Assembly (NCBI GenBank): GCA_026636295.1
Contig: CP089458.1
Span: 496,001 to 560,000, forward strand
Direction: 5' to 3'
DNA length: 64,000 nucleotides
Source: Medakamo hakoo
Lineage: Eukaryota; Chlorophyta; Trebouxiophyceae; Coccomyxaceae
The position numbers were made by a program, and so were the translations under genes. The notes under the pieces were generated by a model. It was given only the letters and a program-made list of their open reading frames with translations. It was not told where the DNA came from and searched no databases. How positions within the stretch are numbered: position 1 is the stretch's first letter; each line of letters opens with the position of its first letter. Shown here piece after piece: positions 15,061-33,757 of the stretch.

Positions 15061-18000
15061 CTAAAGCTCGTCTTTCCCATCCCCACCGTCGCCCTCCATC
15101 GTCAGGCCGCCCTTTTTACCCGCGCCTTTCTTCGGCTTGTCCTCCTCCACCTCGTCCTCGTCCTCTTCCTCCACCGGCAGCGCCGGCACGTCCGGCTCGG
15201 TGAGTTTGCCCACGTCTTCCTCAGAGCTCAACCCCGCAAAGGCCTTCCCAGCCGCGGCGTGCAGGCGCGCCGCAAAGGCAGCAGGGTCGTCGACGTCGAA
15301 GCCCGACTCCAGCAGCGCCGCATCCCACAGCAGCCGGGCCAGGGATGCGGCAGCCGGGTCCGACGCGTCGGCCTCATGCGCTTTCTTCAACGCCTGGATC
15401 AGGGCGTGGCGCGGGTTGATCTCCAAAATCTTGGCGCCGCGCATATACGCCGCGCGCGCCGCGCCCTCGCTGCCCGCCAGGGCTTGGGCTTTGATGATTT
15501 TCTCCATGTGGGCCGACCAGCCGTAGGCGGACGTGGTGACGACGGCCGGAGCGGTGCCCAGGCCGGCGGGCACGACGCGGACGGAGGAGACGGCGCCGGC
15601 GCCGAGCTGGTCCTTCCACCAACTCGCGAGCGGGCCAAACGCGGCTTTGACCGCCTTGGCCTTGTCCTTGTCGCCGCCGTCCTCGTCGCCCAGCGCCAGG
15701 CCTTCCTTCGACGCGGACTGGAGCCGGGTGCCGTCAAAGTCCGTCAGGTGTTGGGCCAGGTACTCGTCAATCGCGTCCGTGAAGAACAGGACCTCGTACC
15801 CGGCGCTCGCCAGCCGGCGCGCAAAGGGCGACCGCTCCAACGCGCCGCGGTCGCCGCCAGTGAGGTAGAAGATGGCCTTCTGGCCCGGCTTCATGCGCGA
15901 GACGTAGCCCGCCAGCGACGTCATGTTGGCCGCGCCCGGCGGGCCAACACCGGCCGCGGACGTCTCAAACCGCAACAGGCGCGCCAGCCGAGACCGGTTG
16001 GGCGCGTCCTCCATGATGCCCAGCTTGACGGCCTTGCCAAACCCGCGCCAGAAGGTCGTGTACGGGCCCGGCTTGGACGCGGCGTCGTCGTCGTCGCCGG
16101 CCCCCTTCTTCTTCTTCCCAAACAGGCCGCCACCTTTTTTCTTCCCAGCTTCTTCCTCTTCCGCATCGGCCAGTTTTTTGAGGGCGTCCAACGCTTTGCG
16201 CACCAGCTTCTTTTTAATGGTGCGCAGCGCCGGCGCCGCTTGCAGCGTCTCCCGCGAGACGGAGAGGGGGAGCGAGTCGGAGTCGACGACGCCGGCCAGG
16301 AAGCCCAGGTACCGGGGCAGCAGCTCCTTGCCAAAGTCGTCGCCCACGAACACGCGGCGCACGTACAGGCGCACCGCCGGGTCCGCCGAGTAATAGTTTT
16401 CGTAGAACGAGGGCGGCGGGGAGGGCGGGACGTACAGGATGGCCCGGAATTCCACGTCGCCCTCGGCCTTGAAGTGGGCGTGGGTCAGGGGCGGGGGCGC
16501 GGACGGGCCAGACTTGACGAGCGCGGAATAGAAGGCCGCGTGGTCGGACTCGGTGACTTCCGCCGGCGGGCGCAGCCAGACGGGGGAGACGTCGTTCAGG
16601 CGTTCCCAGGCGTAGGTCGTGACTTTTTTGGTCTTGGGCGCGGGGGGCGGCGCGTCGGCTCCCTCGTCTTCGTCTTCGATGGTCGCGCCGCCGTCGTCGG
16701 CGCTCTCCTCCTTCTTTTTACCGCCGTCGTCGTCCTCTGGAATTGGTTCGTCCACGGTGCGCGACGCGTTCAGCAAGATGGGGTGGCCCACGAACTCGCT
16801 GTACTTGGCGACCAACGCACGCAGCTTGTCCTGTTCCGCGTACTCGGGCTTGTCGGACTTCAAGAACAGGCGGACGGCCGTGCCGCGGCCCAGGCGCGGC
16901 GCGTCCGGCGCGTCCTCGAAGACCTCGAACGCGCCGTCCGCGGCCGACTCCCACACCCACTGTTTGGGCGCCGGGCCGCCTTTCTTCGGCGCGGGACACG
17001 ACACGACCTGCACCCGGTCCGCGACGAGGTAGGCGGAATAGAAGCCGACGCCAAACTGGCCGATGAGGGAGGCCGAGGCCTCAGTGGCCGCGCCGCCTTT
17101 TTTGCCCGCCTTTTTGCCGGTGTCGCCGCCGCCCGTCTTGGACAGGGCGTCCAGGAACGCGGACGTGCCGGACTTGGCGATCGTGCCCAGGTTGGACACC
17201 AGCTCCTCCTTGGTCATGCCGACGCCCGTGTCGCGGATTTCCAGCACGCCCGCCGCCGGGTCGACCGACAGGCGGATTTCGAGGTCGGACGGGCCGCCGT
17301 CCAGGGCGGACTTGTCCGTCAGGGACGCCAGGCGGAGCTTGTCTAGGGCGTCAGCCGCGTTGGAGATGAGTTCCCGCAGAAAGATGTCGGTCTGGGTGTG
17401 AGTGTGTGTTTGAGGATGGTGCGTGCGTGAGTTTTTTTTTTTTTTTCGTTCCCGCCGGCCTCTCCCTCGCGCCCTCACAGCCCAGCCCGCACACTCTCCC
17501 CCACTCCTCCCACGTGCGACTCACATTGGAGTACAGGGAGTTGATGATGATGTCCATGAGGCGGGACACCTCGGCCTGGAACTCAAAGCGCTCGCCGCCC
17601 GGGTGACTGTGTTTTTGAGGGTTGTGTGTTGGGTGGAGAAAAAAAATTTGAAAAAAGAGCCTACCGCGGACTGAAAGGGCGGCGGGGAGGGGCGGAGGGC
17701 CGCGCCAGCCCACTCTTCGCCCACGTCTCTGGGCCCAGCAGCCCGTTATCACCACTTCAAAAGTACCTGGTGGACGGCGTCGGTTTGGCGTCGGCGGCCA
17801 GGACGGCTGTTTTTGATGGGGAGATGGAAATAGGCGGGAGGTTCGGGGTGGGTGAGCGCGCGAAGACCGAACAAAAACCGCGGCGTGTTCCACGCACAGC
17901 GCCGTGCATGCTTGAAATGCGTAGCCCAGCAGTCGTGCCGGGGCCTGATCTTTCCGTTGAGGTCAGAAGAACGCCCGGGCACGGGGGAAAAAGCTGGGCG

Positions 18001-18123
18001 CGGCGCCCGTTTCCTCAACCGCAGCGCTGGCCAGGGGCGCCATCACGACTTACCAGGCCCGCCCGTCGCCAACGCCGCCACAGCCGCCAGCAGCAGGAAA
18101 GTGCGAACGAGGCGACGTGCCAT
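15061..18123 (-). CDS. HSP90B: GRP94 / HSP90B, ER-resident HSP90 chaperone
   Basis: Four exons in transcription order (18054-18123, 17767-17806, 17525-17606, 15061-17391) give 840 residues. The protein begins with a signal peptide (MARRLVRTFLLLAAVAALA) and ends in KDEL, which places it in the ER lumen rather than the plastid or cytosol. The HSP90 ATPase motifs are all present: FQAEVSRLMDIIINSLYSN, FLRELISNAADALDKLR, DTGVGMTKEEL, IGQFGVGFYSAYLVAD. An acidic charged linker follows (around 16620-16740), then the middle and C-terminal domains, with a second Lys/Gly-rich insert near 16080-16150 (GKKKGGGLFGKKKKG). It folds secreted clients with BiP. The start codon is 221 bp from that of BiP on the other strand. 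Exon 2 is only 40 nt. Confidence 0.96.
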
Positions 18124-18344
18124 GGTGGTGTTCAGAGGGAGTGTTTTGGTGGGAGTATGCTCAGCACCGGCGTGATCCTTGGAACGTTTTCCTTTTCCAT
18201 GCCTCTCCGGAAAGCCGCAGTGTGCGCGCCACTCCTTCGTTCGCGGACGGACACTGTTTTTTTCTTCGGCTTTTCGCGTGGAGGGCTCACCCCAGCCCGC
18301 GCGCCCCCTCTCAACACAGCACCCCAACAACACCAATTCAAACC
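18124..18344. promoter_or_regulatory. Shared promoter region of GRP94 and BiP
   Basis: This 221-bp stretch lies between the divergent start codons of the two ER chaperones, so both 5'UTRs and promoters must fit in it. It holds one CGTGG (18277-18281), one CCAAT (18333-18337) and a GGAACGTTTTCC (18181-18192) that partly resembles a heat-shock element. None meets the spacing of the animal ERSE. Shared stress control is an inference from gene content and layout. Confidence 0.55.
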
Positions 18345-21072
18345 ATGGCGCTCGGCCGGGCCGCGCGCGCCGCCGTCGTCCTGCTGGGTGCGTTTTTGAG
18401 CGGAATGGGCTCGTCTCTTTCCTTCCGAAACAGCACGCGCTTCCCCGCGCCTTCCCGCGGCCGCCGCGGGCGGCGAAGCAGTGGCTTTCACGCCCGCCCA
18501 CCCTCATGGCTGGCTGGTCTGAGACCGTGCCTTGCCCTCTGCAGCGGCAGAGTTTACTGCTGCCGGTCCCGACCGTGCCGTTGTGGGAAGGCGCGCCATG
18601 GCGGAAGCGCGCTCCGCGCTCGTTGGCGGTCGAGCACAGGCGGGCCTCGCCCCACCCCACCCCCCGCCCGCTCCGCCGCCCGCCCGATGCGGTCACCCCC
18701 ACTTAGCCCCGCCCCTAATCCGGCCCCATCCATCGGGCTGGGCGGCGCGCACCGCGACGCCCCGCAACCCCCCGCGTCTTGCTTCTATTCTTTTTTTTCG
18801 TCGATCGCTTTCTCTCACCCTATGAAAAAAAAACTCCCACCCACAAAACAGCCCTGTCCGCCTGCGCCTTTGGCCTGGCCGCCGCGGCCGACAAGGCTGA
18901 CAAGGACGCCGGCAAGAAGGCGGACGGCGCCAAAGAGGAGAAGCTGGGCACGGTCATCGGCATTGACTTGGGCACGACGTGAGTTGAGCGGGCTTTTTTC
19001 AAGCGGGGGAGCGGGGAGGAGAGCGCTGCTTTTCGTCTCGCTCACGCGCGTTCCCATTCCACTCCCCACCCGCCATGCCTCAGCTACTCCTGCGTGGGCG
19101 TGTACAAGAATGGGCGCGTCGAGATCGTGGCCAACGACCAGGTGAGAGGATGGAGGGTTGGGTGTGGGGAGCAGGGCAGGGCTCCCCGCGCGCGCACCGA
19201 GTTTCAAACCAAACCGCGCGTCCCCACACCCGCGCCCCTCACCCACACCTCCCCCATCCATCCCCCACCAACTCACCAACCGCGCAGGGCAACCGCATCA
19301 CGCCCTCCTACGTCGCCTTCACCGACGGCGAGCGCCTCATCGGCGACGCCGCCAAAAACCAGGCGACCACCAACCCGGAGCGCACGGTCTACGACGTCAA
19401 GCGCCTCATCGGCCGCAAGTTCAAGGACCGCGAGGTCCAGCGCGACATGAAGATGGTGTCGTACAAGGTCGTCGACAAGGCGGGCAAGCCGTACATCTCC
19501 GTCAAGGTGGGCGGCGAGGACAAGGTCTTCTCCCCCGAAGAAGTGTCGGCCATGGTCCTGACCAAGATGAAGGAGACGGCGGAAGCGTACCTGGGCAAGC
19601 CGGTCAAGCACGCGGTCGTGACGGTGCCGGCCTACTTCAACGATGCGCAGCGCCAGGCCACCAAGGACGCCGGCACGATCGCCGGCCTGAACGTCGTCCG
19701 CATCATCAACGAGCCGACGGCGGCGGCCATCGCGTACGGCCTGGACAAGAAGGGCGGCGAGCACAACATCCTCGTCTTCGACCTGGGCGGCGGCACGTTT
19801 GACGTGTCCGTGCTGACCATCGACAACGGCGTCTTCGAGGTCGTCGCCACGTCGGGCGACACGCACCTGGGCGGCGAGGACTTTGACCACCGGGTCATGG
19901 ACTACCTGATCAAGCTGATCAAGAAGAAGTTCGACAAGGACGTGTCCAAGGACGCGCGCGCGCTGCAGAAGCTGCGGCGGGAGGCCGAGCGCGCCAAGCG
20001 CGCGCTCTCCTCCCAGCACCAGGTCCGCATCGAGGTGGAGGCCCTGGCCGACGGCGTCGACCTGTCCGAGCCGCTGACGCGCGCCCGGTTCGAGGAGCTG
20101 AACGCCGACCTGTTCAAGAAGACGCTGGGCCCCGTCAAGAAGGCCCTGGACGACGCGGGTCTGGCCAAGACGGACATCAAGGAGATCGTGCTGGTCGGCG
20201 GGTCGACGCGCATCCCCAAAGTCCAGTCGCTCATTAAAGACTTTTTCGGGGGCAAGGAGCCCAACAAGGGCGTCAACCCGGACGAGGCGGTCGCGTACGG
20301 CGCCGCCGTCCAGGGCGGCATCCTGTCCGGCGAGGGCGGCGACGAGGTCAAGGACATCCTGCTGCTGGACGTGTGCCCGCTGTCGCTGGGCATCGAGACG
20401 GTCGGCGGCGTCATGACCAAGCTCATCCCCCGCAACACGGTCATCCCGACCAAGAAGTCGCAGACGTTCACGACGTACCAGGACAACCAGGCGACGGTGT
20501 CGATCCAGGTGTTCGAGGGCGAGCGCGCCCTGACCAAGGACAACCACAACCTGGGCAAGTTTGACCTGACGGGCATCCCGCCCGCCGCGCGCGGCGTTCC
20601 CCAGATCGAAGTCACCTTTGAGATCGACGCCAACGGCATCCTGAACGTGGGCGCCGAAGACAAGGGCACCGGCAAGCGCGAGAAGATCACCATCACCAAC
20701 GACAAGGGCCGCCTGTCGCCCGACGAGATCGAGCGCATGGTCCAGGAAGCCGAAGAGTTTGCCGACGCCGACCGCGCGGTCAAGGCGCGCGTCGACGCCA
20801 AGCACGGCCTGGAAGCGTACGCCTTCAACATGAAGTCCCAGCTGGAGGACAAGCTGGGCGACAAGGTGGACAAGAAGGAAAAGGCCAAGGCGACGGCCGC
20901 GATCAAGGACGCGCTGGACTGGCTGGAGGCCCACCCGGACGCGGACGAGGACGAGTACAAGGACAAGCAGAAGGAGCTGGAAGACGTGTGCGCGCCGATC
21001 GTGGCGGCGGCGTACGGCGGCGCTGGTCCGGGCGGCGCGGACGACGACCTGGGCGACCACGACGAGCTCTGA
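18345..21072 (+). CDS. BIP: BiP, ER lumenal HSP70 chaperone
   Basis: Four exons (18345-18387, 18852-18978, 19084-19141, 19288-21072) give 670 residues. The signal peptide spans exons 1 and 2 ([14 protein letters not shown] then [13 protein letters not shown]), and the C-terminus is HDEL. The three HSP70 signatures are visible: GIDLGTTYSCVGV (rebuilt across the intron 2 junction), [17 protein letters not shown] and [13 protein letters not shown]. An acidic Asp-rich segment precedes HDEL. BiP is the main ATP-driven chaperone and stress sensor of the ER. A charged Lys/Asp-rich stretch after the signal peptide ([18 protein letters not shown]) is longer than usual. It is divergent from GRP94. Confidence 0.97.
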
Positions 21073-32008: not shown

Positions 32009-33757
32009 ATGGGAGGCGACGCCGCCGTCCCCGCCCTGGAATTCTCCGGCGCGGTGCGGCTGGCCGACATCTCCGACTACATTTCGCCGGCCCAAGCCTG
32101 CGTCGTCGCGGCCGGGACTGCTATCCCAGCAGGTGCACCCGCGGCTGCAGTGGCCGCTGCTGCCGCTGCAGCTGCGGCGGCGGCGGGAGGCGGTGGTGGC
32201 GTCGTGCCAGGCACCCGCGCCGGCGTGGGCAAAGGCAATGCGCCGCCGACCGCGACGGCGACGACCCTGTCTGCGCCGACCGCTGTGCCTCCACCACCCA
32301 CCGACCCCGTCCGCGTCTCCCTGTACGACTGCCTGGCGTGCTCCGGGTGCGTGACGTCGGCGGAAGCTGTGCTGTTGGAGTCGCAGGGCGAGGCCGAGTT
32401 GGCCGCGGCCCTGGCGGCGTCCGCGGCGTGGCGGGGCGGAAGGGGCGGCGGGCGGCCGCTGGTCGTGAGCCTGACGACCCAGGCGGCGTCCAGCCTGGCC
32501 GGCGCGGCTGGCGTGCCCGCGGCCGTCGCCGCCGGGCGCTTGGCAGCAGCTTTGAAGCAGGCAGGCGCGGCTGCTGTGGTGGACGCCGGCGAAGCCCGGG
32601 CCGCGGCGCTCGTCGTGGCGGGCGCCGAGTTTTGTGCGCGCTTCGCCGCTTCGCCCCGCGGCCGTGCGGCGCTCGCCCTCGCGGGCCTGCCGGGCGCGGG
32701 CGAGGCGGCCGCCGCGGCTGCCGCGGCGTTGGGCCTGGACCCATCCACTTCCACCGCGCCGCTCCCCGTCCTGGCGGGCGCGTGCCCGGGGTGGGTGTGC
32801 TACGCCGAAAAGTCCGCGCCTGCGGCCGTGCCCCACCTGGCCGCCGCGCGCTCGCCGCAAGCGCTGTCTGCCGCCGCGGTCAAGCGGGCGCTCGGGTCGG
32901 GCGGCTTTGGCGGCCGTGGCGCCGCGCCGGTCTTCATCTCCATCGCGCCGTGCGCCGACAAAAAACTGGAGGCCGTGCGCCGCGAGTTTCGCGTGGAGGG
33001 AGACGGCCACGAGGGCGGCGGCGGTGGCGCGGCCGCACCGGCCACCACCTCGCCGGAGACGGACTGCGCCCTCACCACGCTCGAAGCGCAGCGCTGGCTG
33101 GAGGGCGTGAGCTTCGCGCCCGCTGACGACGACGCCCTGCCCCCACTCGACCGCCTGGCTGACCTGGTGTGCGGGCGGACGAGCCCGGAGGCGCCCGCCC
33201 TGTTTGAAGCCGCGGGCGGCGGCGGGTCGGGCGGGTGGGCCGCGTTTGTGTTCCGGACCGCCGCCGCGTCGCTGTTCGGCGTCTCTTTCCCGCCAGGGGA
33301 CGCGGGTTTGCCCTGGGTGGCGGGGCGCAATGCCCACGCCCGCGACCTGGTTTTGGTGCATGAACCGTCCGGCGTGACGCTGCTGCGCGTCGGCATCGCG
33401 ACCGGGTTTCGCAACATCCAAACGCTGGTCCGCCGGTCGCTCGCCAAGCCGCCGTCGGCTTCGGGTCTGCCGCCTCCTAACACGCCCGGCCCGTACGATT
33501 ACGTGGAAGTCATGGCCTGTCCGGGCGGGTGCACGAACGGTGGTGGCCAGCTGCGCGGCGTGGACGCGGCGGGCGTGGCCGAGGCCGCGGTGGGTCGGTC
33601 TGCCTGGGAGGAACGGGCGCGGGGCGTGGGGGAAGGCCTGCTGGCCGCGGTGGGGCCGTCGCTGCCTCCCGCGTCCCTGTGGGCGCACTACCAGGCCCGG
33701 GGCGCGGCTGGTGCGAGCGGGAGTGATGGCGGTGGCGGGAGTAGCTTAGCGTGGTGA
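32009..33757 (+). CDS. NAR1: NAR1/IOP1, cytosolic Fe-S assembly (hydrogenase-like)
   Basis: NAR1 is part of the CIA machinery that delivers Fe-S clusters to cytosolic and nuclear proteins. Single exon, 582 residues. The N-terminal cluster ligands are a Cys in SPAQACVV (near residue 31) and DCLACSGC (107-114). The hydrogenase-like cluster Cys are in CPGWVCYAEK (near 261), IAPCADKKLEA (near 313) and MACPGGCTNGGGQ (near 502). Further family blocks are DCALTTLEA, NAHARDLVLVHEPSG and GFRNIQTLVRR. An Ala-rich insert separates the first Cys from the CxxCxxC group. It lacks features of true algal Fe-hydrogenases (no transit peptide), so a hydrogenase assignment is unlikely. Convergent with the kinase gene, 63 bp apart. 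Confidence 0.93.
   Translation: MGGDAAVPALEFSGAVRLADISDYISPAQACVVAAGTAIPAGAPAAAVAAAAAAAAAAAGGGGGVVPGTRAGVGKGNAPPTATATTLSAPTAVPPPPTDPVRVSLYDCLACSGCVTSAEAVLLESQGEAELAAALAASAAWRGGRGGGRPLVVSLTTQAASSLAGAAGVPAAVAAGRLAAALKQAGAAAVVDAGEARAAALVVAGAEFCARFAASPRGRAALALAGLPGAGEAAAAAAAALGLDPSTSTAPLPVLAGACPGWVCYAEKSAPAAVPHLAAARSPQALSAAAVKRALGSGGFGGRGAAPVFISIAPCADKKLEAVRREFRVEGDGHEGGGGGAAAPATTSPETDCALTTLEAQRWLEGVSFAPADDDALPPLDRLADLVCGRTSPEAPALFEAAGGGGSGGWAAFVFRTAAASLFGVSFPPGDAGLPWVAGRNAHARDLVLVHEPSGVTLLRVGIATGFRNIQTLVRRSLAKPPSASGLPPPNTPGPYDYVEVMACPGGCTNGGGQLRGVDAAGVAEAAVGRSAWEERARGVGEGLLAAVGPSLPPASLWAHYQARGAAGASGSDGGGGSSLAW

Follow-up and report, generated by a model that had tools for sequence, protein, structure and literature searches.

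The genes for two endoplasmic reticulum (ER) chaperones, GRP94 and BiP, stand head to head in the green alga Medakamo hakoo, and the question is whether they form a regulatory unit or are neighbours by chance. They lie in a stretch of 64,000 nucleotides (contig CP089458.1, positions 496,001 to 560,000, forward strand), called the window below; positions are counted from its first letter. M. hakoo belongs to the Trebouxiophyceae and is ultrasmall; its nuclear genome, of 16 contigs flanked by telomeres, has a GC content of 72.7% and 7,629 genes in 15.8 Mb (PMC9871001). The genome searched here comprised 15,638,232 bp in 16 contigs. On balance, we lean towards an old, probably co-regulated bidirectional GRP94-BiP pair set on a single 221-bp divergent region, the putative promoter of both genes. 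The linkage would predate the split between Trebouxiophyceae and Chlorophyceae, and would have been kept because both genes answer the same ER-load signal.

Structure and identity of the gene pair

Gene models were rebuilt by hand, with exon borders set by eye. The GRP94 gene occupies the minus strand, its 4 exons encoding 840 amino acids that end in GGDGKDEL, and the BiP gene the plus strand, with 4 exons, 670 amino acids and the end GDHDEL. All 6 introns have GT-AG borders, both reading frames are open up to the stop, and the start codons diverge with 221 bp between them (18124-18344). Identities, coordinates, strands and KDEL/HDEL tails had been proposed in an earlier note made from the letters alone, together with the head-to-head geometry; the gene models and the matches to PDB agree with it on all of these. 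The features are as follows.

15061..17391, minus strand: GRP94 (ER HSP90B) exon 4, ending in the KDEL tail and the stop (gene model; best PDB match endoplasmin)
17525..17606, minus strand: GRP94 exon 3 (GT-AG splicing, continuous frame)
17767..17806, minus strand: GRP94 exon 2, end of the signal peptide and start of the mature N terminus, placed by eye (gene model)
18054..18123, minus strand: GRP94 exon 1, start codon plus the larger part of the signal peptide (gene model)
18124..18344, no strand: shared intergenic region, 221 bp, putative bidirectional promoter with both 5′ untranslated regions (gene models, motif scan)
18345..18387, plus strand: BiP exon 1, start codon plus the beginning of the signal peptide (gene model)
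18852..18978, plus strand: BiP exon 2 (gene model)
19084..19141, plus strand: BiP exon 3 (gene model)
19288..21072, plus strand: BiP exon 4, HDEL tail and stop (gene model; best PDB match GRP78/BiP)

When compared to PDB with phmmer, the GRP94 product matched endoplasmin best (575 bits, against 525 for the best HSP90-beta), and the BiP product GRP78/BiP (945 bits). With HSP90 domains in the first, HSP70 domains in the second, and in both a signal peptide (recognised by eye) and a KDEL-type tail, the proteins belong to GRP94/HSP90B1 and BiP/HSPA5, respectively. NCBIfam named only bacterial families, e.g. DnaK, HscA and HtpG. Among the best candidate loci of the genome, which were those scored, no second near-identical copy of either gene was found. 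The pair is intact, and looks single copy because the next matches were only 64% (HSP70) and 46-47% (HSP90s) identical.

Human GRP94 has about 50 residues between the end of the signal peptide and the ATPase domain. At the N terminus of the M. hakoo protein (17525-18123) only ∼15 seem to be present, with the signal-peptide end placed by eye, and the pre-N stretch looks nearly absent. Extra Lys/Gly-rich inserts were also seen relative to the aligned endoplasmin.

Probable linkage in Chlamydomonas and short divergent gaps

In Chlamydomonas reinhardtii, we take locus numbers to step by 50 along the chromosome, which would make BiP2, HSP90B and BIP1 neighbours. Cre02.g080650 is listed as ER HSP90B and Cre02.g080700 as ER HSP70 (PMC6313938, Table 2), the latter being BIP1 (PMC8448359, PMC9419350), and Cre02.g080600 is BiP2 (PMC3862487). 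ER HSP90 and BiP thus carry consecutive locus numbers, according to published tables, in one second species from a second class. This neighbourhood is probably ancestral, given that Chlamydomonas represents a different class of core chlorophytes. Synteny in a relative had been guessed in the earlier note, and the Chlamydomonas numbers bear this out as far as adjacency goes. The same two ER chaperone functions are apparently adjacent in both algae, with two BiP genes in Chlamydomonas and one in M. hakoo. For Chlamydomonas the evidence consists of these locus numbers, and one publication assigns the name HSP90B to Cre17.g730950 instead. An HSP90B promoter of C. reinhardtii has reportedly been characterised (Traewachiwiphak 2018).

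It could also be that the linkage arose twice, once in M. hakoo and once in Chlamydomonas. The different number of BiP genes around HSP90B, and an arrangement in Chlamydomonas that is known from numbering, would fit such a double origin. That these two genes, out of thousands, should have been brought together twice is nevertheless improbable, and we consider this explanation very unlikely indeed. Further relatives were sought in viral and prokaryote collections, with search peptides mostly from variable stretches: two scans of IMG/VR gave none, and one scan of GTDB contigs returned seven bacterial HSP90-type loci, of no use for synteny. The absence of algal relatives from both collections is weak evidence, because of the nature of these peptides.

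Bidirectional gene pairs are defined as head-to-head genes whose start sites are separated by no more than 1000 bp, and are common in plants, where about 13.3% of Arabidopsis genes are arranged in this way (PMC2648788). GRP94 and BiP correspond to this definition, lying on opposite strands with 221 bp between start codons, which stand here for mapped transcription starts. Short divergent gaps were also found elsewhere, as the window holds at least four further divergent pairs with start codons, placed by eye, 92, 141, 190 and 362 bp apart.

41157/41348: RRM_8 / ATP synthase beta divergent pair, 190 bp (starts by eye)
51480/51843: divergent pair, both genes without Pfam match, 362 bp (starts by eye)
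55239/55332: MFS_5 / NUDIX divergent pair, 92 bp (starts by eye)
60608/60750: NmrA / isochorismatase divergent pair, 141 bp (starts by eye)

None of these four pairs has an obvious shared job, which weighs against a regulatory meaning of the GRP94-BiP gap. The M. hakoo genome seems prone to short head-to-head gaps; given these four pairs, a gap of 221 bp is normal here and geometry alone proves little. What is unusual is the identity of the partners, not their spacing. With 7,629 genes, we calculate a chance of ∼1 in 15,000 for finding one named gene as the divergent upstream neighbour of BiP, the pair having been chosen post hoc. The published Chlamydomonas adjacency is a stronger point than this chance, and an independent one.

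These observations bear on a second explanation, genome compaction only: at roughly one gene per 2 kb, two separate core promoters would abut, and the pairing would have no regulatory meaning. The four other pairs at 92-362 bp and the packing of 7,629 genes into 15.8 Mb (PMC9871001) are in its favour, as are two points taken up below, the separate promoters of the HSP22E/F genes and a mutant in which HSP90B is listed without HSPA5. Compaction hardly explains, however, why the same two functions carry neighbouring locus numbers in Chlamydomonas. A further point against it is that in another M. hakoo mutant both proteins count among those with increased abundance (PMC12868012). We regard compaction alone as somewhat unlikely, and keep the co-regulated pair as the preferred reading in what follows.

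The 221-bp region and a candidate element

The GC content of the 221 bp is 0.58, compared to 0.655 and 0.661 in the two flanking 2-kb bins and to a range of 0.655-0.823 over the whole window. Runs of T or A occur at 17432-17446, in an intron, and at 18257-18263, in the intergenic region, the rest of the genome being about 70% GC. Three features of the region are used below.

18257..18263, no strand: T7 tract in the intergenic region (sequence scan)
18274..18281, plus strand: TCGCGTGG, candidate ER-gene promoter element holding CGTGG, 68 bp before the BiP start (k-mer and targeted counts)
18333..18337, plus strand: CCAAT shortly before the BiP start, with a spacing that is not that of an ER stress response element (ERSE) (sequence, motif count)

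Known elements of the unfolded protein response (UPR) have the consensus forms CCAAT-N9-CCACG, CCAAT-N10-CACG, ATTGG-N-CCACG, TGACGTG and TCATCG. A pattern scan of the 221 bp for ERSE-I, ERSE-II, TGACGTG, CACGTG and TCATCG gave no match, in keeping with the earlier note, which had remarked that a correctly spaced animal ERSE was lacking. A promoter driven by ERSE or by the plant UPR element is not indicated, as the region holds just one lone CGTGG half-site and one lone CCAAT. Nor does it resemble promoters driven by heat-shock elements (HSE), such as that of HSP60/HSP10, since no HSE unit (GAAnnTTC or TTCnnGAA) was found in the 221 bp. An IRE1-type RNase domain (E 7.5e-22) and 12 bZIP matches are present in the genome, and an IRE1-bZIP response is therefore possible. 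A point against the preferred reading is that, of these 12 bZIP loci, the 8 that were searched had no IRE1 twin hairpin, counting only uninterrupted stems of at least 6.

CGTGG corresponds to the ERSE half-site CCACG read on the other strand, and its position was compared between ER genes and controls. The ER set consisted of the 300 bp upstream of calreticulin (CRT), PDI, PDIA6-like, PDI-C, ERO1, ERdj3, SDF2, BiP and GRP94; the controls included genes read as cytosolic and plastid chaperones, and names and starts in both sets were read by eye. Left out of the counts were the upstream region of IRE1, an HSP90 on contig C16 and an HSP70 on contig C1, whose starts were unclear, as well as the remaining loci with thioredoxin domains, a number of window genes for which the start was also unclear, and a PAM16-like promoter that had been picked by its motif. 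In the first control set 3 of 8 regions were only 92-190 bp long, and the per-gene count then used 300 bp for all 27 genes. Eight ER regions held 10 occurrences of CGTGG, all forward and all between −129 and −64. A forward CGTGG at −135 to −60 was present in 6 of the 9 ER genes, BiP included, and in 1 of 18 controls (Fisher 0.0017). TCGCGTGG is common to BiP, ERO1 and PDI-C. The 14-mer CCACTCTCGCGTGG has exactly 2 copies in 15.6 Mb, upstream of ERO1 (C1:999231-999244, locus L032) and of an ERV/PDI-C-like gene (C7:909227-909240, locus L040) by genome scan, and its first ten bases have 79 copies genome-wide, one of them in the upstream region of ERdj3.

Several results count against a regulatory role of this motif. 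The −135 to −60 stretch was picked after the ER data had been seen, and over the full 300 bp the forward word is present in 6 of the 9 ER genes, compared to 5 of the 18 controls. Nor is the number of CGTGG copies raised, the ER regions having 10 for 11.8 expected at the rate of the window. The forward site is missing from GRP94, CRT and PDI; the candidate in the 221 bp is forward for BiP only and, seen from GRP94, is reversed and about 154 bp off. An unbiased k-mer search of these eight regions (k from 6 to 8, with 100 shuffles each) gave as the sole word above all shuffle maxima the simple-repeat word CGCGCGC (6/8, forward), and CGCGTGG (4/8) and TCGCGTGG (3/8) reached just what most shuffles give for some k-mer. 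Since the k-mer test did not single them out, the CGTGG and CCACTCTCGC leads depend on counts that were either targeted or made post hoc.

CCACTCTCGCGTGG was rejected as an ER element. None of its 5 one-mismatch copies, a further argument against such a role, precedes a recognisable ER gene: 3 fall in long open frames, 1 in an HSP70-like match, and 1 before a gene read as PAM16. With up to 2 mismatches, copies of CCACTCTCGCGTGG are rarer than those of the reversed control (208 against 311), as are genome-wide copies of CCACTCTCGC (79 against 194).

A more specific proposal would be that the divergent BiP-GRP94 promoter, kept in core chlorophytes since before the Trebouxiophyceae/Chlorophyceae split, is controlled by an ER-stress element peculiar to green algae (CGCGTGG, in its longest form CCACTCTCGCGTGG) that replaces ERSE and also stands before ERO1, PDI-like genes and partly ERdj3. 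We hold this version to be doubtful. Alternatively, co-regulation may be real with its control element elsewhere, e.g. in the first introns, or with heat-shock factors (HSF) acting on degenerate sites. The lack of any standard UPR element or HSE in the 221 bp would agree with this, as would the introns: in both genes intron 1 splits the signal-peptide coding part and is the longest of the gene (464 bp in BiP, 247 bp in GRP94). The genome also has one weak match to the HSF DNA-binding domain (24.5 bits, C10:623819-623875, locus L063), possibly split by an intron. Yet other ER promoters have the CGCGTGG of the 221 bp too, at a similar distance, and we consider a control element elsewhere improbable.

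Returning to the co-regulated pair on a shared region, an ER-stress factor would open the 221 bp, whose GC content is below that of the flanking DNA, perhaps via the CGCGTGG site at 18275-18281, and RNA polymerase would then start in both directions. Co-induction of GRP94 and BiP would be expected from such a mechanism, a fixed output ratio would not.

Expression of the two proteins and known divergent chaperone pairs

In the ion-beam mutant LRG of M. hakoo, proteomics placed both HSPA5 and HSP90B among the more abundant proteins (PMC12868012). For mutant TTR, the same publication lists 9 more-abundant proteins; they include HSP90B (MHACOO_007157, log2 fold change 1.7) and not HSPA5, a point against the preferred reading. 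The running number 007157 fits the position of the GRP94 gene, which we estimate at about 14.62 of 15.64 Mb, i. e. gene ∼7,130 of 7,629. The joint rise in LRG and the listing of HSP90B alone in TTR suggest that both can rise together and that their ratio is not locked, at the protein level at least. The idea, put forward in the earlier note, that a shared promoter would lock the ratio is not supported by these data. No ER-stress RNA-seq was found in the portions of the M. hakoo literature consulted.

Cooperating chaperones whose genes diverge from one bidirectional promoter are already known as a kind. The classic case is mammalian HSP60/HSP10, where, as in M. hakoo, two cooperating chaperones of one organelle are divergent, and where the genes share one stress-inducible promoter (PMC7262932). 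That pair differs in being a mitochondrial chaperonin, with HSE and HSF1 binding shown experimentally (PMC7262932), whereas the M. hakoo pair is an ER HSP90/HSP70 without HSE consensus, whose promoter role is putative. In the green alga Chlamydomonas, the chaperone genes HSP22E/F are also head to head, with transcription starts about 368 bp apart (PMC5700999). Unlike GRP94 and BiP they are 93% identical copies, and each has a TATA box and a (degenerated) HSE to itself; such retention of separate promoters is a precedent against a shared one here (PMC5700999).

Among the matches listed in the literature searched, which leaves most subscription journals outside, none described BiP and GRP94 as a head-to-head pair. 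The statement of the earlier note that no well-described natural case is known holds to this extent, and is weakened in that the locus numbers published for Chlamydomonas already reveal the neighbourhood. If co-control from one short region has indeed lasted since core chlorophytes diversified, the pair would be an ER counterpart of HSP60/HSP10, and the 221 bp a natural promoter directly testable in a minimal alga. The nine ER genes of this one small genome would then supply a concrete candidate element for ER-stress recognition without ERSE in green algae.

Elsewhere in the window, positions 32009-33754 encode a [FeFe]-hydrogenase-like protein (Fe_hyd_lg_C, Pfam E 3.4e-33), which we presume to be a NARF/Nar1-type iron-sulfur assembly factor.

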